Positions 11,427 through 53,801 of a stretch of DNA of 64,000 nucleotides are shown piece by piece; position 1 is the first letter of the stretch, and the number at the start of each line of letters is the position of its first letter. The notes under the pieces were generated by a model, which was not told the DNA's origin, made no database searches, and worked only from the letters and a program-made list of their open reading frames with translations. A program made the translations under genes and the position numbers. Origin of the DNA: an uncultured Verrucomicrobiota bacterium (GTDB lineage: Bacteria > Verrucomicrobiota > Verrucomicrobiia > Opitutales > Opitutaceae). The stretch covers positions 1 through 64,000 of the forward strand of contig CAIRBK010000080.1 of NCBI GenBank assembly GCA_903876795.1, read 5' to 3'.

Positions 11427-12652
11427 AAGCCGTCTCCTTTGTCTCTTTCCTTCTCCTCGCGGGCATCGCCGGCGTCATCGGCTACCAAATCGCCTCCACT
11501 CGCCACCCGGCCGTCGCGGCGGTGAGCTCCGGCACCCCGACCCCCGGCGCGCGCAAAATCAAGTTCTACCAGTCGCCGATGCACCCGTGGATCAAGTCGG
11601 ACCAGCCCGGCAAGTGTACCCTCTGCGGCATGACTCTCGCCCCTGTTTATGAGGGCGAGGCGGGCTTCGCCACCGAGGGCAACATCATCACGCTCCCACC
11701 CGCCTCCGCCGCCGTCCTCGGCGTGCAAACGGCCGAGGTCAGCAAGGCACCTCTCGTCCGGACCCTCCGCGTCACCGGCACCATCGACGATGACGAGACG
11801 CGCCACCGCTTCCTCGCCAGCTACACCGACGCCCGCATCGAAAAACTCTTCGTCAACACCACCGGCGTCGCCGTCACCGAGGGCCGGCCGCTCGCCGTGC
11901 TCTACAGCCCCGACCTGCTCACCGCCCGCCAGGAATTCCACGCCCTCGCGACCGCCTCGCCTGATTCCTCTCTCCTCGCCCCCGCCCGCGAAAAACTCCG
12001 CCGCCTCGGCCTCCTCGATTCGCAAATCGACGCCCTCGCCGCCGCCGCCGAGGTCGCCCGCGACACCGAGATCCTCGCCGCCAGGACCGGCGTCGTCGTC
12101 GAGCGCAGTCCCGCCGCCTACGAAGGCGGCTACGTAAGGGCCGGCGAGACGCTCTTCACCATCGGCGATTTCCAAAAAATGTGGTTCCTCTTCGACGCCT
12201 ACGAGGCCGACTTTCCCGCGCTCAAAACCGCCACCCGCGTCGAGGTCACCGTGCCGTCGCTCCCCGGCGAGACGCTCACCGCGCCCATCGCGTTCATCGA
12301 TCCCAATCTCAACGAGGCGACCCGCACCGCCAAGGTCCGCGTCGTCCTCGACAACGCCGATGGCCGCCTCCGCCACCGCCAGACCGCCTCCGCGCGCGTC
12401 GTCAGCGAGTCGCCCGACGTGCTCGTCGTGCCGCGCTCCGCCGTGCTCTTCACGCAAAAAGACCCCGTCGTTTACGTCGATCACGGCGGCGGTGGCTACG
12501 AGCCCCGCACCGTGAAGCTCGGCCGCGCCGGCGACGACGCCTACGAAGTTCTCGCCGGACTCCACGAGGGCGATCACGTCGTCACCGAAGGCGCCCTCCT
12601 TATCGACGCCCAAGCCCAGGTCGCCCACTCGGCCCGGGGCTCCGCCAAATGA
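11423..12652 (+). CDS. RND efflux periplasmic adaptor with N-terminal metal-binding domain (CusB-like)
   Basis: The adaptor links the inner-membrane RND pump to the outer-membrane channel. The 409-residue protein has an N-terminal membrane anchor (FVSFLLLAGIAGVIGY). A heavy-metal-binding domain follows at about 47-75 (FYQSPMHPWI, CTLCGMTLAPVYEG), then the barrel-sandwich, alpha-hairpin and beta-barrel regions typical of CusB (GTIDDDETRHRF, VLYSPDLLTARQEF, FIDPNLNEATRTAKVRV). The CxxCGM motif is the form seen in copper/silver pumps. The gene starts inside the stop of the TolC-like gene and its own end overlaps the start of the RND gene, so three proteins come from one tightly coupled message. 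Confidence 0.92.
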   Translation: MKAVSFVSFLLLAGIAGVIGYQIASTRHPAVAAVSSGTPTPGARKIKFYQSPMHPWIKSDQPGKCTLCGMTLAPVYEGEAGFATEGNIITLPPASAAVLGVQTAEVSKAPLVRTLRVTGTIDDDETRHRFLASYTDARIEKLFVNTTGVAVTEGRPLAVLYSPDLLTARQEFHALATASPDSSLLAPAREKLRRLGLLDSQIDALAAAAEVARDTEILAARTGVVVERSPAAYEGGYVRAGETLFTIGDFQKMWFLFDAYEADFPALKTATRVEVTVPSLPGETLTAPIAFIDPNLNEATRTAKVRVVLDNADGRLRHRQTASARVVSESPDVLVVPRSAVLFTQKDPVVYVDHGGGGYEPRTVKLGRAGDDAYEVLAGLHEGDHVVTEGALLIDAQAQVAHSARGSAK

Positions 12653-15600
12653 TCGCCGCCATCATCCGCTGGTCCCTGCACAACCGCTTCCTCGTCGTCG
12701 CCGGCCTGGTCGCGCTCTGCGCCTGGGGCGTCGTCGCGCTGCGCACCGTGCCGGTGGACGCCATCCCCGACCTCTCCGAAAACCAGGTCATCGTTTACGC
12801 CGACTGGCCCGGACGCTCGCCCCAGGAGGTCGAGGACCAGATCACCTACCCGCTCTCCGTTTCGTTGCAGGGCCTCGCCGGCGTCAAAACCGTGCGCGCT
12901 TCGTCGATGTTCGGGTTCTCCTTTCTCACCGTCATCTTCCGCGATGACGTGGACAACTACTTCGCCCGCACCCGCGTCCTCGAGCGACTCAATTCCCTCG
13001 GCGAACTCCTTCCCGCCGGCACCGTCGCCCGTCTCGGCCCCGACGCCACCGGCCTCGGCTGGATCTACCAATACTACCTGAAGGACGACTCCGGGAAACA
13101 GGATCTCGGCTCGCTGCGCGCGTTGCAGGACACGTTTGTGCGCTACCAGCTCGCCTCCGTTCCCGGCGTCGCCGAGGTGGCCGGCATCGGCGGCTTCGCC
13201 CGCCAGTATCAGATCGAGGTCTCCTCTTTGAAGTTGAAACAATTCAACGTCACCCTCGGCGAGGTCATTGACGCGGTCTCGGCCTCCAACGCCAACGTCG
13301 GCGGCAAGACCCTCGAGGAAAACGGCGCCGAGTTCATCGTGCGCGGCGTCGGCCTGGTCACCTCGCCCGCCGATCTCGAAAGCATACCGATCACCCCGCG
13401 CAACGGCACGCCTCTCCACCTGCGCGACGTCGCCACCGTCGGCATCGGCGGCGATTTCCGTCGCGGCGCGCTCGACGTGGACGGACGCGAGGTCGTCGGC
13501 GGCATCGTCGTCATGCGCTACGGCGAAAACGCCCACCGGGTCATCCAGGACGTCAAAGCCCGCCTCGCCTCCCTCGCCCCCGGCCTGCCCGCCGGCGTTT
13601 CGGTCGCTCCGTTCTACGACCGCAGCGACCTCATCGACCGCGCCCTCGACACGCTCAAACACGCGCTTTGGGAGGAGATCATCCTGGTGACGCTCGCCCA
13701 TATCCTCTTCCTGTTTCACTTCCGCAGCATCCTGATCGTCACGCTGCCGCTGCCCGCCTCGATCCTCATCGCGTTTATCCTGATGAAGGAATTCGGCATC
13801 CCGTCGCACATCATGTCCCTCACCGGCATCGCCATTTCCATCGGTGTGCTGGTGGACGCCGGCATCGTCATGACGGAAAACGTCATCCGCCACTGCGAAC
13901 GCGCCGAGGAAGAACTCCGCCGCCGCCTCACGCCGCCCGAGGTGTTCCGGCACACGCTGGAGGCCGCCACCCAGGTCGGCCGACCGATGTTCTTCTCGAT
14001 GATGATCATCATCCTGGCCTTCGTGCCGGTGTTCATGCTGTCGGGCCAGGAAGGCAAACTCTTCCACCCGCTCGCCTACACCAAGAGTTTCGCGCTCATC
14101 GCCGCCGTCCTCCTCGCCATCACCGCCGTGCCCGTCTTCTGCACCTGGCTGGTGCGCGGCCCGTTCAAGCCCGAAAGCGAAAACTGGCTCATGAAGGGTC
14201 TGCTCAGGCTCTACGATCCCGCGCTCGACTGGGCGCTCGCCCATCGCAAAACCGTCCTCGCCCTCGCCGCCGCCCTGCTCGGCTTCGCCTGCCTGCTCGC
14301 CTTTGGCCTGCCCAAGAGCTTGACCGAAAAACTCCCGCCCTCCGTCGCCGGCCACACCGGCGGCTTCGGCAGCGAGTTCATGCCCACGCTTGAGGAAGGT
14401 TCCCTGCTCTTCATGCCCGTGCTGCTCCCGTCCACCTCGCTCACCGAGGTGAAGCGCATCATGAGCTGGCAGGACAAGGTCATCGCCGCCCACCCCGAGG
14501 TCGTTTCCGTCGCGGGCAAACTCGGCCGCGCCGAAACCGCCACCGACCCCGCGCCCGTCGAGATGATCGAGACGACCATCCTGCTCAAGCCGCCGTCGCA
14601 GTGGCGCCCCGGCGTGACCAAGGACCGGATCATCTCGGAACTCACCGACCGGCTCACCCAGGTGCCCGGTTACGTCCCCGGTTTTCTGCAACCGATCGAG
14701 AACCGCGTGCTCATGACCAGCACCGGCATCCGCGCCCAGGTCGGCGTCAAAGTCTTCGGCGACGACCTCGACGCGCTTCAACAGAAGGCCTTCGAGATCG
14801 AGCGCGTGATCAACACCATCCCGGGCGCGGTCGGCGTCGCCCCGTCCCGCGTGCAGGGCAAGCCCTACCTCGAAATCGTCGCCCGCCGCGACCTCATGGG
14901 CCGCAACGGCCTGCGCGTCGCGGATGTGTTCAAATACATCGAGACCGGCCTCGGCGGCTCCGTCGCCGCCACCACGATCAAGGGCCGCGAGCGCTGGCCC
15001 ATCCAGATCCGACTCGACCGGGCCGACCGCGACGATATTGAAAAACTCGGCGACCTGCTCATCCCCACGCCCTCCGGCCCGATGGTCCCGCTGCGCCAGA
15101 TCGCCGACATCAAGCGCGTGATCGGCCCAAGCGAGATCCAGAGCGAAAACGGACGCCTGCGCGTCTTCGTCCAGGCCAACGTCCAGGGCCGCGACCTCGG
15201 CGGCTTCGTGGACGAGATCAAACAAAGTGTCACCCATAAGGTGACACTGGCCCCGGGCATGACCATCGACTACTCCGGCCAATACGAAAACCAGCTCCGC
15301 GCGCGCCGGACGCTGGCCTATGTTTTCCCGGCCGTGATCGGCATCATTTTTATCCTGTTGGTGATGACCTTCCGCAGCGTCCCCGAGGCCGCGCACGTGA
15401 TCCTGGCGGTGCCCTTTGCGCTCACCGGCGGAGTGCTTCTTCAGGCGATCCTCGGCTTCAATTTCAGCGTGGCCGTGTGGGTCGGCTACATCGCGCTCTT
15501 CGGCACCGCCATCCAGACCGGAGTGGTCATGGTGGTTTACCTTGAGGAAGCCGTGGTCGCCCTGCGCAAGCAACTCGGCCGCGAGCTCACGCGCCCCGAG

Positions 15601-15840
15601 CTCATCACCGCCATCAAGGCCGGCGCGCGCCTGCGCCTGCGGCCCAAGGTCATGACCGTTGCCACCACCGTGGCCTCGCTGTTGCCGATCTTCTGGAGCA
15701 CGCGCACCGGCGCCGAGGTCATGCAGCCGATTGCAGCCCCCGTGATCGGCGGCATGTTGTCCTCGCTCGTCCACATCCTGGTCGTCACCCCGGTGATCTT
15801 CGCCTGGCTCCACGAACGAAAGCTTCGGACTGCCTCGTGA
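12649..15840 (+). CDS. cusA: CusA/CzcA-family heavy-metal RND transporter
   Basis: The proton-driven inner-membrane pump of the efflux complex. At 1063 residues it has full HAE1/HME size, with the usual N-terminal helix, large periplasmic loops and twelve membrane helices. Landmarks are VDAIPDLSENQVIVYADWPG near residue 33, LVDAGIVMTENV in the proton-relay helix, EFMPTLEEGSLLFMP at the metal entry region (Met-rich as in CusA), and YLEEAV near the end. The presence of a CusB-like adaptor with CxxCGM and of a Cu-type ATPase nearby argues for Cu(I)/Ag(I); Zn/Co/Cd remain possible. It begins in an ATGA overlap. A 23-base palindrome of a dispersed family lies inside the gene at 15226. Confidence 0.92.
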   Translation: MIAAIIRWSLHNRFLVVAGLVALCAWGVVALRTVPVDAIPDLSENQVIVYADWPGRSPQEVEDQITYPLSVSLQGLAGVKTVRASSMFGFSFLTVIFRDDVDNYFARTRVLERLNSLGELLPAGTVARLGPDATGLGWIYQYYLKDDSGKQDLGSLRALQDTFVRYQLASVPGVAEVAGIGGFARQYQIEVSSLKLKQFNVTLGEVIDAVSASNANVGGKTLEENGAEFIVRGVGLVTSPADLESIPITPRNGTPLHLRDVATVGIGGDFRRGALDVDGREVVGGIVVMRYGENAHRVIQDVKARLASLAPGLPAGVSVAPFYDRSDLIDRALDTLKHALWEEIILVTLAHILFLFHFRSILIVTLPLPASILIAFILMKEFGIPSHIMSLTGIAISIGVLVDAGIVMTENVIRHCERAEEELRRRLTPPEVFRHTLEAATQVGRPMFFSMMIIILAFVPVFMLSGQEGKLFHPLAYTKSFALIAAVLLAITAVPVFCTWLVRGPFKPESENWLMKGLLRLYDPALDWALAHRKTVLALAAALLGFACLLAFGLPKSLTEKLPPSVAGHTGGFGSEFMPTLEEGSLLFMPVLLPSTSLTEVKRIMSWQDKVIAAHPEVVSVAGKLGRAETATDPAPVEMIETTILLKPPSQWRPGVTKDRIISELTDRLTQVPGYVPGFLQPIENRVLMTSTGIRAQVGVKVFGDDLDALQQKAFEIERVINTIPGAVGVAPSRVQGKPYLEIVARRDLMGRNGLRVADVFKYIETGLGGSVAATTIKGRERWPIQIRLDRADRDDIEKLGDLLIPTPSGPMVPLRQIADIKRVIGPSEIQSENGRLRVFVQANVQGRDLGGFVDEIKQSVTHKVTLAPGMTIDYSGQYENQLRARRTLAYVFPAVIGIIFILLVMTFRSVPEAAHVILAVPFALTGGVLLQAILGFNFSVAVWVGYIALFGTAIQTGVVMVVYLEEAVVALRKQLGRELTRPELITAIKAGARLRLRPKVMTVATTVASLLPIFWSTRTGAEVMQPIAAPVIGGMLSSLVHILVVTPVIFAWLHERKLRTAS
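15226..15248. repeat. Palindrome AGTGTCACC...GGTGACACT inside cusA
   Basis: Arms AGTGTCACC (15226-15234) and GGTGACACT (15240-15248) flank catаa-like spacer bases cataa. They encode the residues SVTHKVTL in frame. The same palindrome occurs at 22658 and, slightly degenerate, at 41870. Confidence 0.75.
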
Positions 15841-17833: not shown

Positions 17834-19144
17834 GTGCTCACCCAGCGTCGCGTTGAAGCTATGCCGCATGTCCGGCTCGGCGAAATCGCGTCGTTCGTTC
17901 GCAAAGGAATCTTCGATATCAACGCCGACGCCTACACGGAGACGGGGGTTCCCTTTGTTCGTATTACGAACATTCAGTCGGGCCTGATTTCGACCGACAA
18001 TATCGCATTCATCCCGCCGGACATCCACGAGGCAGAGAGCAAGACAGCGCTATTTCGAGGCGACATCGTCTTGTCGAAGACCGCATATGCTGCGGCGGCT
18101 TGGGTGAATCTGACCGAATGCAATGCCAGCCAAGACACGGTCGCCGTTCGTTTGTCGCCCGCCGGGCGCAAACGTCTGCGCTCCGGGGCCATTGTCACGT
18201 TTCTAAATTCCGCACATGGCCGCGCTCTGATGTGGCGTCAGTTTCAGGGCAACGTGCAGGCGCACCTTTCGCTGCCGGATGCGAAGAAACTGCCGCTCCC
18301 GATTTTCGGAGAGCCGATGCAGCAGCTTCTTGAGGAAAGTCTCATCAAGGCAGACGCTTCGACGATCCGGTCTAAACAGAGTCTCGCCGCCGCCGAGCAA
18401 ACCCTGCTCCACGCCCTCGGCCTCGACGCCTGGCAACCGCCCGAGCCGCTGACCTACATGCGCCGCGCCACGGAGGTCCTAACGGCGGTTCGTTTGGACG
18501 CCGAACATTTCAAACCCAAGTTCGACGACCTTATCGCACACCTGATTGCCGGGGGTGACGCGGTTCGACTGGATAAGGTGCTTTCATTCTGCGAACGCGG
18601 GCAACAACCGAACTATGCGAATGAGGGAGTAACGGTTGTGAATTCCCGCCACGTGCGGACAGACGCCGTAATCATAGATGGCGAAAATCGCCATGCGACG
18701 GTGGAGGACAAAACGCTGTTGATCCGTCACGGTGACATCCTGCTAAACGGCACTGGCGTCGGCACCATCGGTCGAGTCACCACCTATCTCCACGACACGC
18801 CCGCGCTACCGGATAACCATGTGACCATTCTGCGATTGCATCCGGAATCGGGCTTCGACCCCGTGTTTCTGGCCGTGCAGCTCGCCGGCGTCGTCGGCCA
18901 AACACAGGTCGCACAGCATACGCGCGGTTCCTCGGGGCAGCTTGAACTCTATCCGCAAGACATTCGCCGCATCCTCGTCTGGCGCGCACCCAGGGAAATG
19001 CAGCTCGCAGTCCGCAAGAACATCGAAGCCGCCCACGCCGCCCGCCGCGAAGCCCAGGCCCTGCTCGCCCGCGCCCAGCGCGGCGTCGAGATCGCCATCG
19101 AGCAAGGCGAGCCCGCCGCACTTACACTGCTGGATGTAAAATAA
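17834..19144 (+). CDS. hsdS: Type I restriction-modification specificity subunit, HsdS-like
   Basis: HsdS supplies DNA sequence recognition to a type I methylase. Two target-recognition halves are seen, the first with VPFVRITNIQSGLIS and DIVLSKTAYAAAAW and the second with DILLNGTGVGTIGR and RGSSGQLELYPQDI. Each is followed by a helix, the last being AAHAARREAQALLARAQRG. From the GTG at 17834 the product is 436 residues. The protein-like reading continues upstream to about 17708 (FDSARYKALLEGLDISEL) without any start codon, so the natural N-terminus has probably lost its start. With the partner hsdM broken, this is likely an orphan or dying gene. It carries a 17-base perfect palindrome at 17956 also found at 53780. 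Confidence 0.8.
   Translation: MLTQRRVEAMPHVRLGEIASFVRKGIFDINADAYTETGVPFVRITNIQSGLISTDNIAFIPPDIHEAESKTALFRGDIVLSKTAYAAAAWVNLTECNASQDTVAVRLSPAGRKRLRSGAIVTFLNSAHGRALMWRQFQGNVQAHLSLPDAKKLPLPIFGEPMQQLLEESLIKADASTIRSKQSLAAAEQTLLHALGLDAWQPPEPLTYMRRATEVLTAVRLDAEHFKPKFDDLIAHLIAGGDAVRLDKVLSFCERGQQPNYANEGVTVVNSRHVRTDAVIIDGENRHATVEDKTLLIRHGDILLNGTGVGTIGRVTTYLHDTPALPDNHVTILRLHPESGFDPVFLAVQLAGVVGQTQVAQHTRGSSGQLELYPQDIRRILVWRAPREMQLAVRKNIEAAHAARREAQALLARAQRGVEIAIEQGEPAALTLLDVK
17956..17972. repeat. Palindrome TGTTCGTATTACGAACA inside hsdS
   Basis: A perfect inverted repeat centred on T17964, read in frame as part of FVRITNI. The same 17 bases form the core of an intergenic palindrome at 53777-53801. Confidence 0.6.
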
Positions 19145-20615: not shown

Positions 20616-22622
20616 ATGAAGACTTCCGATGAAATCCCCTCCAACGACGCCCCCGTTTACATGGGCCTGCCCCATGAACGCGTCCTCCGCCCGCGCTTCT
20701 ACGTCGCCCTCGCACTCACCCTGCCGGTCCTCGTCCTCGCGATGGGACCGATGCTCTTCCCGTCGTCCGCGCATACCATCGACCCTCGCCTCTCCGGCTG
20801 GCTGCAACTCGCTCTGACCACCCCCGTGTTTTTCTGGAGCGGGCGGTTCTTCCTCCGCCGCTGGTGGCAATCCCTGCGCGAACTCGATCCCAACATGTTC
20901 ACGCTCACCGTGACCGGGACCGGCGCGGCGTATTCTTACTCGGTCGCCGCCGTGCTCTTTGGGCATCGTTTTCCCGCTTCGCTCCACCTTCCGGGTCACG
21001 GCGTGCCGCTCTACTTCGAGGCCGCCGCGTTCATCACAACCATCGTCCTTCTCGGACAAATCCTCGAACAACGCGCCCACGCCCGCACCGACTCCGCCAT
21101 CCGCGCCTTGACGGACCTCGCGCCCGCCACCGCGCATCGCGTGCGAGCCGACGGACACGAGGAGGACGTCCCGCTCGCCGACATCGCCGTCGCCGATCTC
21201 CTCCGCGTCCGCCCCGGAGAAAAAATCCCCGTCGATGGCACGCTGGCCGACGGCGGCAGTGACGTGGACGAATCGATGCTCACCGGCGAACCCGAGGCCG
21301 TTGCCAAAACGCCCGGCGACAAGGTCAGCGCCGGCACCCTCAACACCACCGGTTCCTTCGTCTTTCGCGCCGAGCGCGTCGGTCGCGATACGCTGCTCGC
21401 GCAGATCATCCGTCTCGTCGAGGAGGCGCAAAACAGCGAGGCACCCATCCAGCGCCTCGTGGATCGAGTGTCCGCCTGGTTCGTGCCCGCCGTGGCGGCC
21501 ATTTCCGTGCTCACGTTCGCGCTCTGGCTGTGGCTCGGCCCCGCCCCGGCGCTTATCCCGGCCGTGGTCAACGCCGTGGCCGTGCTCATCATCGCCTGCC
21601 CGTGCGCGCTCGGCCTGGCCACGCCCGTTGCCCTCGTCACCGGCATCGGGCGCGGCGCGCAGGCCGGCGTGCTGGTGAAAGACGCCGCCGCGCTCGAACG
21701 ACTGGTCGCCGCCACCACCGTGCTCATCGACAAGACCGGCACGCTCACCGAGGGCCAGCACCGCGTCGTCTCGGTCCGCCCCGAACCCGGCACCACCGAA
21801 AACGACCTGCTCGCCCTCGCCGCTTCCGCCGAGTCGCCCAGCGAACACCCGCTCGCCCGCGCGTTGGTCGCCGCCGCACGGGAGCGCCTTCTGCCGCTGT
21901 CGGCCGCCACCGATTTTGTCGCCGAACCCGGCCAAGGCGTGCGCGCCTGCGTCAACGGCGTTGTCGTGCGAGTGGGTCGCGCTACCGACGCCACCGCCGA
22001 TCACTCCAGCGCCACGCTCATCGGGGTGACCGTCAACGATCATTTCGCCGGCACCCTCGCGCTCGCCGATCCCATCAAGGCCACGACGCCCGAGGCCATC
22101 CGCGAGCTGCACCGGCTCGGCTTGAAAATCCACATGGTCACCGGCGACCGCGAGGCCGCCGCCCGCGTCGTCGCCGGCGAACTGGGCCTCGACGGTTGCC
22201 ACGCCGGCGTCACTCCGGCGCGCAAACAGGCGATCGTGCGCGAACATCAGGCGCGCGGCGAAGTGGTCGCGTTTGCCGGAGACGGTTTGAACGACGCCCC
22301 CGCGCTGGCCGCGGCCGACATCGGCATCGCCATGGGCACGGGCACCGACGTCGCCATGCAAAGCGCCGGGCTCGTCCTGGTGAAAGGCGACCTGCGGGCG
22401 CTCGTGCGCGCCGTGCACCTCAGCCGCGCGACGTTGCGCAACATCAAGCAAAACCTCTTCTGGGCCTTCGCCTACAACATCGCCGGCATCCCGCTCGCGG
22501 CCGGGTTGCTCCACCCGTTCACGGGTTGGTTGCTCAACCCGATGTTCGCCGCCGCGGCCATGAGCCTGAGCTCGATCAGCGTCGTCGCCAACGCCCTCCG
22601 CCTCCGCCACGCCCGCCTGTGA
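20616..22622 (+). CDS. copA: Copper/silver-type P1B ATPase without N-terminal metal domain
   Basis: A membrane ATPase that moves Cu(I) or Ag(I) out of the cytoplasm. The 668-residue protein has the P1B plan: two leading helices, [18 protein letters not shown], the actuator TGEP motif near 223, the ion-binding helix with CPC at about 328-330, DKTGTLTEG with the phosphorylated Asp near 372, the SEHPLARAL motif with the HP dipeptide, [11 protein letters not shown] and [21 protein letters not shown], then YN and MSLSS in the last helices. No CxxC heavy-metal domain precedes it; the N-terminus is only about 25 residues. The CPC, YN and MSS residues fit Cu(I)/Ag(I). It probably belonged to the same metal-resistance locus as the efflux operon before the island at 15.8-20.6 kb came between them. 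Confidence 0.95.
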
Positions 22623-22657: not shown

Positions 22658-22680
22658 AGTGTCACCTATTAGGTGACACT
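22658..22680. repeat. Palindrome AGTGTCACCT...AGGTGACACT after copA
   Basis: Perfect 10-base arms around att, followed by tttta. It lies 36 bases beyond the copA stop and could act as its terminator. It is the cleanest copy of a family also seen at 15226 and 41870. Confidence 0.75.
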
Positions 22681-26679: not shown

Positions 26680-26777
26680 CAGTTAACTAACGCACGCTGG
26701 GCGGTATCGGATGCTTCGCAACGGCCAACGGACTTCTCTCCTGCAAAAACCCCTCCCGGGACGCCCCCTCCATCCGC

Positions 26778-26804
26778 AACAACTAACCCATTGTGTTAGT
26801 TGTT
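26778..26804. repeat. 27-base palindrome, arms AACAACTAAC / GTTAGTTGTT
   Basis: Perfect 10-base arms with loop ccattgt, between the peroxiredoxin start and the next small gene. The identical 27 bases recur at 43533-43565 region; a worn copy lies at 5779. Confidence 0.75.
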
Positions 26805-26834
26805 GGTTGGGGTGGGGTGATTGGTGGGGGGCGT

Positions 26835-35152: not shown

Positions 35153-36253
35153 ATGGCCGACCCCATTCCCGCCATCCCCGCCCGGATCACCCTGAAGCAA
35201 GTCGCCGCCGAAGCCGGCGTGCATGTGTCCACGGCTTGGCGCGCACTCAAGAACGACACCTACGTCGATCCGGTGAAGCGCGCCCACATCCGCACGATCG
35301 CCAAGCGCCTGGGCTATGTGCCGGATCCAATGCTGACCGCGCTCAGCCACTACCGGCGCAAGCAACACACGCCGGCTTACCGCTCGACGTTCGCCTGGGT
35401 GCACACTTTTCCAGAAAAGCACGGCTGGCAGGAGGCCGTACACCTAAGGGCGTACCACGAAGGCGCGACGGCGTTCGCCGCCTCGATGGGCTATAAACTG
35501 GAGGAGTTTTGGCTGTCGGAGCCCGGCCTTAATCCCAAACGCGCCCGTGAAGTGCTGCTCGCCCGCAACATCCGCGGCCTGATCTTTTGTCCGCAACCGG
35601 CGGCGAAGATGGAGCTCAAGCTGCCGGTCGAGGCGTTTGCGGGCGTGGCCATCGGCTACTCGGTGGAGTCGCCCCGCCTGCACGTCGTGGCCAACCACCA
35701 GCACAGCTCCACCCTCACCTGCCTGCGGGAGTTGTGCCTGAAGGGGCACAGCCGCATCGGCATGGTCAGCGCGTCGGAGACGCTGCGCCGAGCCGAGCAC
35801 AATTTCGAATCGCCCTACTGCCTGTTCCGCGATGCGCAGGCCGAGGATAAACGGATACCTCTCTTCATGATCGAAGGTCGCGACGAGCCGGCGGTTGTGA
35901 GTCCGTGGCGCGAGCGTTTTCTCGCTTGGGTGGAACAATACCGGCCCACCGCGATCATCTCGACGGTATCGGAAGTGAAAATGTGGCTGGAGGCGGCGGG
36001 CCACGACGTGCCGGGTGACATCAGCATCGTGACACTGTCGCGGATTTTCGATCCCGAGTGGTCGGGCATCGACCAGCAGGAAAAGGAAATCGGCACCCGC
36101 GCGGTCGAGCTGTTGATCAGCCTGTTCCAGTCGGGCGAACGCGGCGTGCCGGCGACGCCGCTCCGGTTGCTGATCGAGGGCCGCTGGATCGACGCAGGCA
36201 CGGCAAAAAAAATCGGCCCGCCCGTGACCGATCTGCTCAAGCGGATGGGCTGA
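35153..36253 (+). CDS. LacI-family transcriptional regulator
   Basis: The 366-residue product has the LacI helix-turn-helix at residues 10-32 (TLKQVAAEAGVHVSTAWRAL) and hinge YVDPVKRAHIRTIAKRLGYV. The ligand domain is a type I periplasmic-binding fold (RGLIFCPQP, GHSRIGMVSASE, PGDISIVTLS, GTRAVELLISLFQSGE). It is divergent from the oxidoreductase-isomerase-uxaC genes and most simply represses or activates them in response to a uronate or derivative. Start at ATG 35153; longer starts would precede the domain without purpose. Confidence 0.92.
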   Translation: MADPIPAIPARITLKQVAAEAGVHVSTAWRALKNDTYVDPVKRAHIRTIAKRLGYVPDPMLTALSHYRRKQHTPAYRSTFAWVHTFPEKHGWQEAVHLRAYHEGATAFAASMGYKLEEFWLSEPGLNPKRAREVLLARNIRGLIFCPQPAAKMELKLPVEAFAGVAIGYSVESPRLHVVANHQHSSTLTCLRELCLKGHSRIGMVSASETLRRAEHNFESPYCLFRDAQAEDKRIPLFMIEGRDEPAVVSPWRERFLAWVEQYRPTAIISTVSEVKMWLEAAGHDVPGDISIVTLSRIFDPEWSGIDQQEKEIGTRAVELLISLFQSGERGVPATPLRLLIEGRWIDAGTAKKIGPPVTDLLKRMG

Positions 36254-40400: not shown

Positions 40401-40507
40401 GGGTTAAAGAAACGTGGGACCAACCTGCCCCGCCGGTGTTCCGCACGCAAACCGATAGGCGCGAAGAGGGATTGATTTACGGCGAATTTCAGAGCGGAAT
40501 TTCGTCC

Positions 40508-41881
40508 ATGGTGGCCAAAAACGTGCTTCACGCAGGTGTGTCCGCTTATCTTCAGGAAGCCCGCGCCACCCTGCGGCTGGCCTTACCCATAATCGTTGGA
40601 CAGGTGAGCCAGATGCTGATGGGCGTCACCGACAGCGTGATGATCGGCCGCCTGGGCGCGGTTCCGCTGGCGGCCTCGGCTTTCGCGGGCAGCGTGTTCT
40701 CGATCTTTTTCGTGGTCGGGATCGGCCTATTGCTTCCGGTCGCCGTGCTGGTGTCACGCGAACACGGCGCGGGCGACGACCGGGCGGGGGCATACTGGCT
40801 GCAGCACGGAACCATCCTCGCCGTGCTGGCGAGCGTCGGCGCGATGGGCGGGATGCTGGCGTTGTCCGCATCTTTCGACCACATGGGCCAGCCACCCGAG
40901 GTGCTTGCGGAAGCCGGGCCGTTTTATCAACTCATCACGGCCTCGATGCTGCCGGCGCTGGTGTTCCAGGCGTTCCGGCAATTCGCAGAGTCGCTGGGAA
41001 GGCCGTGGATACCGATGGCGATCCTTCTGGCCTGCGTGGGGCTCAACGTCATTCTCAACTGGATTCTTATCTACGGAAACCTCGGCGCGCCGGCGCTCGG
41101 TCTTAAGGGAGCGGGCCTGGCCACGCTTATCGCGCGCGTGGTCGCGATGGTGTGGTTGATAGCCTGGCTGCGTAGCCAGGAGACGTTTCGCCGGGTCTGG
41201 CCGGCCACTTGGGTGCGCGGGTTGAGCGGGGAGGGGTTTCGCGAGATGCTGCGGATCGGCGTGCCGGCGGCGATCATGCTCCTGCTTGAAGTGGGTGCGT
41301 TCCTTTTGGTGACGCTGATGATGGGCTGGCTGGGCGCGCAGACATTGGCCGCGCATCAGATCGCGCTGAGTTGCGCGGCGTTTGTGTTCATGTTCCCGCT
41401 CGGGCTTTCCATGGCCGTGGGCATGCGGATCGGCAAAGCGCTCGGCGAGGGGCGCAGGGATTTGTTGCGGCCGATCGGCATCGGCGCGTGGACGATGAGC
41501 ACTGCGCTCATGTGCGTCTCGGCAGCGGTGTTTGCGACGGCGGGCACGTGGCTGGCGCGCTGCTTCGTGGACGATGCCGAGGTGGTGGTGCTGGCGGCGC
41601 GACTGCTCGTGGTGGCGTCGATTTTCCAGATATTTGACGGAGCGCAGGCGATCGGCGCGGGCGTGTTGCGGGGGCTTTCCGACGTGCGCATACCGACGGT
41701 GATCACGTTCATCGCCTATTGGGTGCTGGGGACGCCGATTGCCTACGGGCTGGGGCTGCACACAGACTTCGGCGCAGTGGGCCTCTGGCTGGGACTGGCG
41801 TTCGGCCTCGCAGTCGCCGCAGTTTTCCTGGCCCTTCGATTCTTTCGCCTGACACGGCCTATCAACTCAAGTGTCACCTAA
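40508..41881 (+). CDS. MATE-family multidrug efflux transporter
   Basis: An inner-membrane drug or toxin exporter driven by Na+ or H+. The 457-residue protein has about twelve membrane helices in two related halves, the first with LPIIVGQVSQMLMGVTDSVMIG-type sequence (VGQVSQMLMGVTDSVMIGR) and the second with GVPAAIMLLLEVGAFLLV and AAHQIALSCAAFVFMFPLG, GMRIGKALGEG. The ATG at 40508 was taken; an upstream frame from 40436 exists. The stop codon lies inside a palindrome of the AGTGTCACC family, so the last residues SSVT come from that repeat. Confidence 0.92.
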   Translation: MVAKNVLHAGVSAYLQEARATLRLALPIIVGQVSQMLMGVTDSVMIGRLGAVPLAASAFAGSVFSIFFVVGIGLLLPVAVLVSREHGAGDDRAGAYWLQHGTILAVLASVGAMGGMLALSASFDHMGQPPEVLAEAGPFYQLITASMLPALVFQAFRQFAESLGRPWIPMAILLACVGLNVILNWILIYGNLGAPALGLKGAGLATLIARVVAMVWLIAWLRSQETFRRVWPATWVRGLSGEGFREMLRIGVPAAIMLLLEVGAFLLVTLMMGWLGAQTLAAHQIALSCAAFVFMFPLGLSMAVGMRIGKALGEGRRDLLRPIGIGAWTMSTALMCVSAAVFATAGTWLARCFVDDAEVVVLAARLLVVASIFQIFDGAQAIGAGVLRGLSDVRIPTVITFIAYWVLGTPIAYGLGLHTDFGAVGLWLGLAFGLAVAAVFLALRFFRLTRPINSSVT

Positions 41882-41892
41882 TGGGTGAAACT
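41870..41892. repeat. Palindrome AGTGTCACC...GGTGAAACT across the MATE stop codon
   Basis: A slightly degenerate copy (one arm has gaaact for gacact). It supplies the last codons and the TAA of the MATE gene, as if the element had inserted at the gene end. Confidence 0.7.
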
Positions 41893-43450: not shown

Positions 43451-43529
43451 AAACGGCGAGACTGTCGCGATCCCGAGCCTGCTGGCAACGCCGCTCTTGC
43501 GCCCGCACCACCGCAATTTCCCCAACGCC

Positions 43530-43568
43530 GCCCGGAACAACTAACCCATTGTGTTAGTTGTTCCGGGC
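43530..43568. repeat. Perfect 16-bp stem palindrome between divergent genes
   Basis: Arms GCCCGGAACAACTAAC (43530-43545) and GTTAGTTGTTCCGGGC (43553-43568) with loop ccattgt. The inner 27 bases equal the element at 26778. It lies between the PLP-enzyme start and the exoA start. Confidence 0.8.
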
Positions 43569-43626
43569 GGAAGGAGTGAATCCTGGGTTGAAACCGGGCG
43601 CGCCGGGCGCGAGCGTCGGGCCACTC

Positions 43627-53776: not shown

Positions 53777-53801
53777 CCAATGTTCGTATTACGAACATTG
53801 G
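53777..53801. repeat. Perfect 12-bp palindrome CCAATGTTCGTA / TACGAACATTGG
   Basis: Arms flank a single T between argJ and the rpsI terminator. The 17-base core is identical to one inside hsdS at 17956. Confidence 0.75.

Follow-up and report, generated by a model that had tools for sequence, protein, structure and literature searches.

A dispersed palindrome within a cusA-like gene of an uncultured Opitutaceae bacterium and its probable helix-turn-helix partner

How does a 23-base palindrome come to lie, in frame, inside the coding sequence of an RND pump gene, and does it belong to an element able to insert into, or convert, sites elsewhere in the genome? The question is raised by the window analysed here, i.e., a stretch of 64,000 nucleotides on contig C80 of the genome of an uncultured Opitutaceae bacterium (designated G000; 3.57 Mb in 103 contigs), in which an earlier note had described the same palindrome at three positions. 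All three copies, at 15226-15248, 22658-22680 and 41870-41892 (none is assigned a strand), read as described. The first, AGTGTCACC-CATAA-GGTGACACT, is seen in the window scan, the genome count and the ortholog comparison, and lies inside a cusA-like gene (12181-15840, plus strand; an ORF with a Pfam ACR_tran match), where it codes in frame for SVTHKVTL as had been stated. The second, with loop TATTA, is located ~35 bp past the stop of a P-type ATPase (copA-like) ORF at 20616-22622, and the third, with loop TAATG, extends across the stop of the MATE ORF at 40436-41881, the product of which has a MatE domain in the Pfam scan; the TAA stop codon (41879-41881) sits in the palindrome loop. The identity claimed for the three copies holds for the arms, which are shared, but not for the loops, all of which differ, and the copy at 41870 has one arm mismatch. 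In the window, AGTGTCACC occurs five times versus 0.26 expected, a count reached in 0 of 100 shuffles, and the arms at ≤3 mismatches give four matches versus 0.18 expected, three of which are the copies above while the fourth, at 36015, is unrelated.

Across the source genome, the count that had been proposed, using the pattern GTGTCACC-N5-GGTGACAC, returns 23 matches at ≤2 mismatches (15 exact, five with one and three with two), and the reversed pattern returns 0 matches in the same 3.57 Mb. Exact 8-bp arms around a 5-nt loop are present in 15 of the 23; since two matches have unrelated loops, 21 are taken as members of the family, which we refer to as A-type. Nineteen of these 21 copies have a YAWTR loop, the exceptions being CATAA in cusA and TGTTA. 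The core offers one open frame per strand, CH(L/P)(I/L/M)GD, and the remaining two usually meet TAA, TAG or TGA. Twelve family copies are internal to ORFs, and eleven of these, distributed over ten ORFs that all have Pfam matches, read CHxxGD or RHxxGD; the host genes include a class V aminotransferase, a 3-beta-HSD type epimerase, a DEAD_2 helicase, a TatD DNase, an M32 peptidase and an O6-methylguanine methyltransferase. The twelfth is the cusA copy, which is read in a frame other than CHxxGD, and in that frame the usual CATTA loop would read as a TAG stop, whereas the CATAA loop present there reads AAG.

Comparison with a wider genome collection demonstrates dispersal beyond this genome. 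An exact scan for TGTCACC-YAWTR-GGTGACA identified at least 110 stretches, and the titles among the 110 matches listed are Verrucomicrobia, Opitutae or an Opitutaceae genus in 109 cases and Clostridiales in one (L076, taken as a chance match and dropped from the following count). In 79 of the 110 named loci, for which ORFs were called from stop to stop with a crude GC-frame caller and cover 91% of the sequence, 93 exact copies were placed: 30 inside ORFs in the CHxxGD frame, four in the cusA frame and none in the third, with 22 partly overlapping an ORF and 37 outside ORFs. Palindrome copies thus occur within genes as well as at their ends, they are depleted from genes, and those within genes are confined to open frames, a pattern that purging of broken genes would explain.

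Orthologous sites in related genomes are informative with respect to how the copies arrived, and for two genes the insertion suggested in the earlier note is borne out by empty sites. The class V aminotransferase site (14 loci) is shorter and palindrome-free in G003, G005, G006 and G007; it is filled by a palindrome with A-type arms in G000 and G001, with TGTCACT arms in G004, G009 and G010, with TGTAACT and one altered arm in G011, and with AGTAACC in G002. G008 has a look-alike without palindrome at this site, and none is present in two genomes of other families. In the source genome the filled gene exceeds an empty one by 6 codons, and the A-type and TGTCACT fillings are equal in length, with differing arms. 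The epimerase site (16 loci) is empty in G003, G005 and G006, filled in eight genomes including the source genome (two of the eight hold two copies), of similar length without palindrome in G008, and without palindrome in four genomes of other families; the filled gene of the source genome is 8 codons longer here. At the methyltransferase, the source genome and one named relative share A-type arms, and G011 has TGTAAC arms. Comparison of the relatives demonstrates both empty sites and in-place differences. No target-site duplication was defined and the inserted length varies, which we count against an explanation that involves the HTH partner gene described below.

The situation in cusA is different from that at the empty sites. 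None of six close orthologs, 64-83% identical in this stretch, carries the palindrome or differs in length, which indicates that a block was rewritten in place and not inserted. The orthologs differ from the cusA copy in residues, and do not encode the same residues with varied codons, and the palindrome is strongly enriched elsewhere, so the refuting outcome named in the earlier note did not arise. With the block changed, the length kept and another sequence retained in all six orthologs, conversion of a site, the second possibility considered in the earlier note, is the best reading for cusA. GTGACC is present at the palindrome site in one of the six (G008) and the later GTG in five, and we infer that a slightly similar stretch was overwritten.

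The three copies described originally are real, yet four further elements of the window had been missed, belonging to two other types with different arms (D-type at 17957 and 53782, E-type at 26781 and 43539). One D-type palindrome (17952-17976), with the core GTTCG-TATTA-CGAAC at 17957-17971, lies inside an ORF without Pfam match (17834-19144), and the other, CCAATGTTCG-TATTA-CGAACATTGG at 53777-53801, lies outside called ORFs, ~50 bp past the argJ ORF. The E-type elements are imperfect palindromes, i.e., CAACAACTAACC-CATTG-TGTTAGTTGTTG at 26777-26805, outside called ORFs, and an element with long outer arms at 43528-43570 (core 43539-43559), which is situated between two divergent ORFs and overlaps the listed TTG starts of both (43540 and 43558). 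The window thereby contains seven elements in total, covering all three arm types of the HTH genes of this genome. At the Rfam gathering threshold the palindromes match no family; a minus-strand tRNA gene at 468-541 gives the sole Rfam match in the window.

For a comparison of related palindromes, a set of 37 genomes was used, 24 of the window's family and 13 of the order's other families. The relaxed motif GTNACN-YAWTR-NGTNAC is present in 17 of the 24 genomes of the family, with 2 to 107 copies each, and as a single copy in each of two of the 13 outside it, while the reversed control gives three matches in total over the 37 genomes. At the free motif positions, the two arms agree in 199 of 208 and 205 of 208 distinct copies, and many copies are spaced 42-90 bp apart. 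Judged by their sequences, the palindromes form a superfamily with a common YAWTR loop, in which each type has its own arms. Members are also found inside genes that we take to be uvrA-like (L033, L081 and L232). Individually matched outer arms, which would point to insertion into older hairpins, are not claimed, since pairing at offsets 7-16 amounts to 781 versus 743 ± 23 in shuffled sequence for the GTNAC types. Two side observations concern repeats of related appearance. G018 has arrays of palindromes with GTCACG arms and a spacing alternating between 46 and 55 bp, which are BIME-like (e.g., contig C19:301998-302161), and a 400-kb sample of G002 (L338-L357, e.g., L338:13240) holds ten copies of an imperfect palindrome with the same loop, GAAGAAGAG-TATTA-CTCTTTTTA, for which no HTH partner was found.

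Clustering of ORFs near the copies led to a family of small proteins, the gene of which is placed between two palindromes that are mostly 411-465 bp apart, with a maximum of ~690 bp (one ORF clustering omitted L003, L005, L006, L011 and L076, and L153-L182 were also outside it). A profile of eight members retrieved 25 genes in 14 of the 37 genomes, and three more from named loci bring the number of proteins to 28; L130, L171 and L101 were taken to be G007, G004 and G010, and their HTH genes were counted once. YAWTR palindromes flank the gene on both sides in 25 of the 28 cases, on one side in two (L286 and L288) and on neither in one (L287); one flanking copy has a TGTTA loop. The gene is present once per clade per genome in the 14 genomes. 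In the source genome there are three, all outside the window on the 142-kb contig C36 (at 21265, 92718 and 116666), and the stop codon of the gene at 92718-93062 is supplied by the downstream palindrome.

The arms of the flanking palindromes differ between the clades of the HTH protein: GTCACC in clade A (protein motif, e.g., PRQRVDDFIVGRRRLPDAE), GTAACC in clade B (PKQRLSDFLKNG), GTCACT or GTAACT in clade C (EVPRQRVHDYFVSG), GTTCG in clade D (HRARIGEYFDK) and CTAAC(C/A) in clade E (PPQRLSDYISG), with the remaining members having GTCACC with other outer bases, GTAACG, TTCACG, GTCACG, GTCAAC or GTCATY. On a quick tree of the proteins, in which 11 of 25 inner branches are open, arm type changes ten times, the minimum for 11 states, in a count that leaves out L287 because it has no arms, and 300 shuffles all require at least 14 changes. 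G004 has four HTH paralogs with four arm types, so that arm type goes with the clade rather than with the genome. Neighbouring genes are shared within clade C in 6 of 6 cases, D in 3 of 3, E in 2 of 2, A in 3 of 5 and B in 0 of 3 (14 of 19 overall). As arms and HTH clade are co-inherited at the flanks, the tree by itself is no proof of recognition, and the dispersed copies are the stronger evidence for pairing.

These copies do track the gene. GTNAC copies, a motif that does not cover the D and E arms, number 12-107 in 13 of the 14 genomes with an HTH gene (G008 has 0) and 0-8 in all 23 genomes without it (Mann-Whitney p = 6e-7; 1e-4 within the family and 0.02 within the genus). D-type arms, predicted for genomes with a clade D gene, occur 12 times in G000, 15 times in G001 and four times in G004, two in each being the gene flanks; the pattern is absent from 30 of the 37 genomes and its reversed control gives 0 matches in all 37, while five copies in G015, which lacks a clade D gene, two in G005 and one each in G010 and G014 count against the explanation preferred below. 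E-type arms are found in 27 copies in G000, whose clade E gene has E-type flanks, one of them degraded, and elsewhere nine times in G012, once in G002 and not at all in 33 genomes, with one match for the reversed control. The innermost arm position is asymmetric in the same way in all 27 matches of the source genome (C on one side and, after reverse complementing, A on the other), as expected for copies of one master. The E-type prediction failed in G008, where a clade E gene has no palindrome nearby and the genome holds 0 E-type copies, and this is again counted against that explanation.

A scan for YAWTR hairpins with any arms, applied to 400-kb samples away from HTH genes and not biased towards particular arms, yet not blind either, the flanking arms being known beforehand, recovered the arms of the genome's own HTH gene in 4 of 4 hairpins in G011 (TTTGTAACT), 5 of 7 in G015 (TTTCACG) and 5 of 17 in G002 (AGTGTCACC); ten of the 17 in G002 belong to another repeat, a point against, and the sample of G017, which has no HTH gene, contains two hairpins, neither of them related. 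Also counted against are G012, with 8 GTNAC and 9 CTAACC copies and no HTH match at 93% completeness, and G001, with A-type copies and no clade A gene found in an assembly that is 77% complete. Taken as a whole, the comparison of dispersed copies with gene content demonstrates an association at the sequence level, and we are confident that the pairing of palindrome and HTH gene is genuine.

The HTH proteins comprise 105-148 amino acids as trimmed, with P46, T50, W53, G68, L73, R75, P95, A97 and E98 invariant (numbering of the G000 protein). The three of the 28 that were scanned have no Pfam match over the cut-off, no NCBIfam match and a best E of 0.017 in PHROGs; their weak, sub-cut-off Pfam matches are to YdaS_toxin, HTH_3 and other HTH families. 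In a predicted model (mean pLDDT 77), helices 69-77 and 81-90 assume an HTH-like arrangement, and structure comparison gives moderate values, with a best VIA Z of 7.5 for HNF1 and 5-6.3 for lambda-type and XRE repressors. Foldseek returned no match with E below 0.001, and a sequence search of solved structures returned seven chains with a best E of 0.079. On the strength of the model, the partner is likely to be an XRE-like HTH, DNA-binding protein, which would suit the protein-binding site that the earlier note also considered. It is under purifying selection, as judged from ten pairs with dN of 0.09-0.27 and dS of 0.88 or more or saturated. Neither 50,697 phage records nor 72,556 plasmid records contain a match to the G000 protein, and one peptide pattern in viral contigs yielded 20 stretches, none of which was confirmed as a relative. 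PF01797, the Y1 domain, has no match in the three partner proteins scanned, and an HuH-like H-hydrophobic-H pattern occurs in one of the 28.

Several other origins can be weighed against these data. A chance palindrome produced in cusA by codon choice might draw on GTGACC and GTG in the orthologs, but it is refuted already by the genome count with its empty reversed control and by the dispersed family across Opitutaceae, and its probability is practically nil. An origin as transcription terminators, or as RNA hairpins of some common kind, would suit the copies that follow stop codons (22658, 41870 and one in L004); however, the 12 of 21 family copies inside ORFs of known families, the restriction of Rfam matches in the window to the tRNA gene and a T-rich part limited to the CTTT of the arm make this origin extremely improbable. 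REP/RAYT was the first expectation, with an IS200-like Y1 transposase moving the palindromes as REPs of the GTAG type. Scale and copy number are comparable, the 42-90 bp spacing fits, Y1 genes occur in 27 of the 37 genomes, and Opitutus terrae has been reported with the most intragenic GTAG REPs, and with REPs within uvrA (PMC3733652). A RAYT as partner was nevertheless dropped, since the motif is found at none of the 31 Y1 loci read (of 133 PF01797 places in the 37 genomes; within ≤1.5 kb; both loci of the source genome included). Furthermore, the RAYT-like Y1 gene on contig C24 of the source genome (L042:1350-2150) is flanked by its own repeat, GGACGGACC-N4-GGTCCGTCC, the GTAG tag stands beside one of 249 copies, and G012 has eight copies and no Y1 match, all of which leaves this origin improbable. 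Y1 genes with their own flanking repeated palindromes (AACGGACA.., GTCCTGCTG.., GACCGACT..) were also observed in L267 and L268 (G010 and G020).

The remaining alternative dispenses with mobility: the palindromes could serve as operators for a regulator or for a protein that organises the chromosome, i.e., HTH sites that arose and were kept by selection. Palindromic half-sites, an HTH partner under purifying selection, the change in cusA without change in length and the look-alikes without palindrome in G008 all agree with it. Operators would not account as readily for a net lengthening by 6 and 8 codons relative to empty sites in two unrelated enzymes of this genome, and more in some relatives, for the asymmetry shared by all E-type matches here, as master copies would have it, for CCAA near 97 of 249 copies (a raw count without control), or for copies that occur in gene bodies as well as at gene ends. 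We regard this alternative as unlikely, although it deserves more weight than those above.

The explanation that we prefer, and consider probable, is that the palindromes are dispersed small elements with a dedicated XRE-like HTH partner and are spread by host enzymes. The HTH protein would bind the palindrome as a dimer, with one monomer per arm, and, once bound, could assist host enzymes of replication or recombination in making copies of the palindrome at new places. Look-alike or older palindromes may be overwritten in place, either by short-patch gene conversion or by template switching at the hairpin, and the cusA copy would be such an in-place overwrite. The HTH gene itself would mostly stay put within its clade, as is said of RAYT genes. 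More tentatively, and with less than even probability, the palindromes may represent a new class of selfish repeats in which HTH-driven, transposase-free spread is combined with in-place overwriting through host recombination or replication, genes included, and in which a genome can hold several independent pairs.

The open-access literature that was searched contains no account, as far as found, in which dispersed palindromes are paired with an HTH gene. The superfamily has a specific partner that is not a transposase, and possibly represents a novel route by which small repeats spread in the absence of an ordinary one. If binding is confirmed, several protein-DNA pairs within one genus would provide a natural set for deciphering an HTH recognition code. 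The in-frame copies are stretches of protein derived from dispersed repeats.

Each of the known systems shares part of these features. As in XRE-type repressors such as C proteins, HipB and lambda cI, the predicted fold (residues 42-115) is accompanied by a palindrome next to the gene, but here a palindrome copy is also present at the 3' end of the HTH gene. We know of no case in which the operator of an XRE-type repressor is dispersed through coding DNA. CGTC REPs, reported mostly in alpha-Proteobacteria, have 8-9 bp stems and 4-5 nt loops, are in part intragenic and have no known transposase partner; they include RPE-4 and RPE-6 of Rickettsia, and spread without a dedicated transposase has been left open in the literature for them, some Rickettsia elements included (PMC3733652). 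The A-type palindromes of the source genome have stems and loops within these limits; in contrast to CGTC REPs, CGTC on either strand is near just 15 of 249 copies (a raw count without shuffled control), and the Opitutaceae palindromes have an HTH partner, whereas helix-turn-helix is absent from the main text of the same report (PMC3733652). In-frame insertion into unrelated protein genes is shared with the Rickettsia palindromic elements (RPE) and the protein-coding palindromes of Wolbachia (PMC10969869, PMC2996958), and empty sites in relatives are seen here for two genes; compared by description, RPE are given as ~150 bp, whereas the core here measures 15-29 bp and is accompanied by a partner gene. 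Closest is the REPtron of REP and RAYT, in which RAYTs are described as recognising cognate REPs (PMC8266576) and RAYT genes as single-copy and apparently unable to move themselves (PMC3116915). Both systems have short dispersed palindromes, often neighbouring each other, and a palindrome-flanked partner gene that occurs once per type, but the Opitutaceae palindromes lack the GTAG tag and place a YAWTR loop between their arms, and their partner is small and HTH-like, with no Y1 domain found. The best reading is a REPtron-like dispersal system in which the partner would be a DNA-binding protein rather than a transposase.
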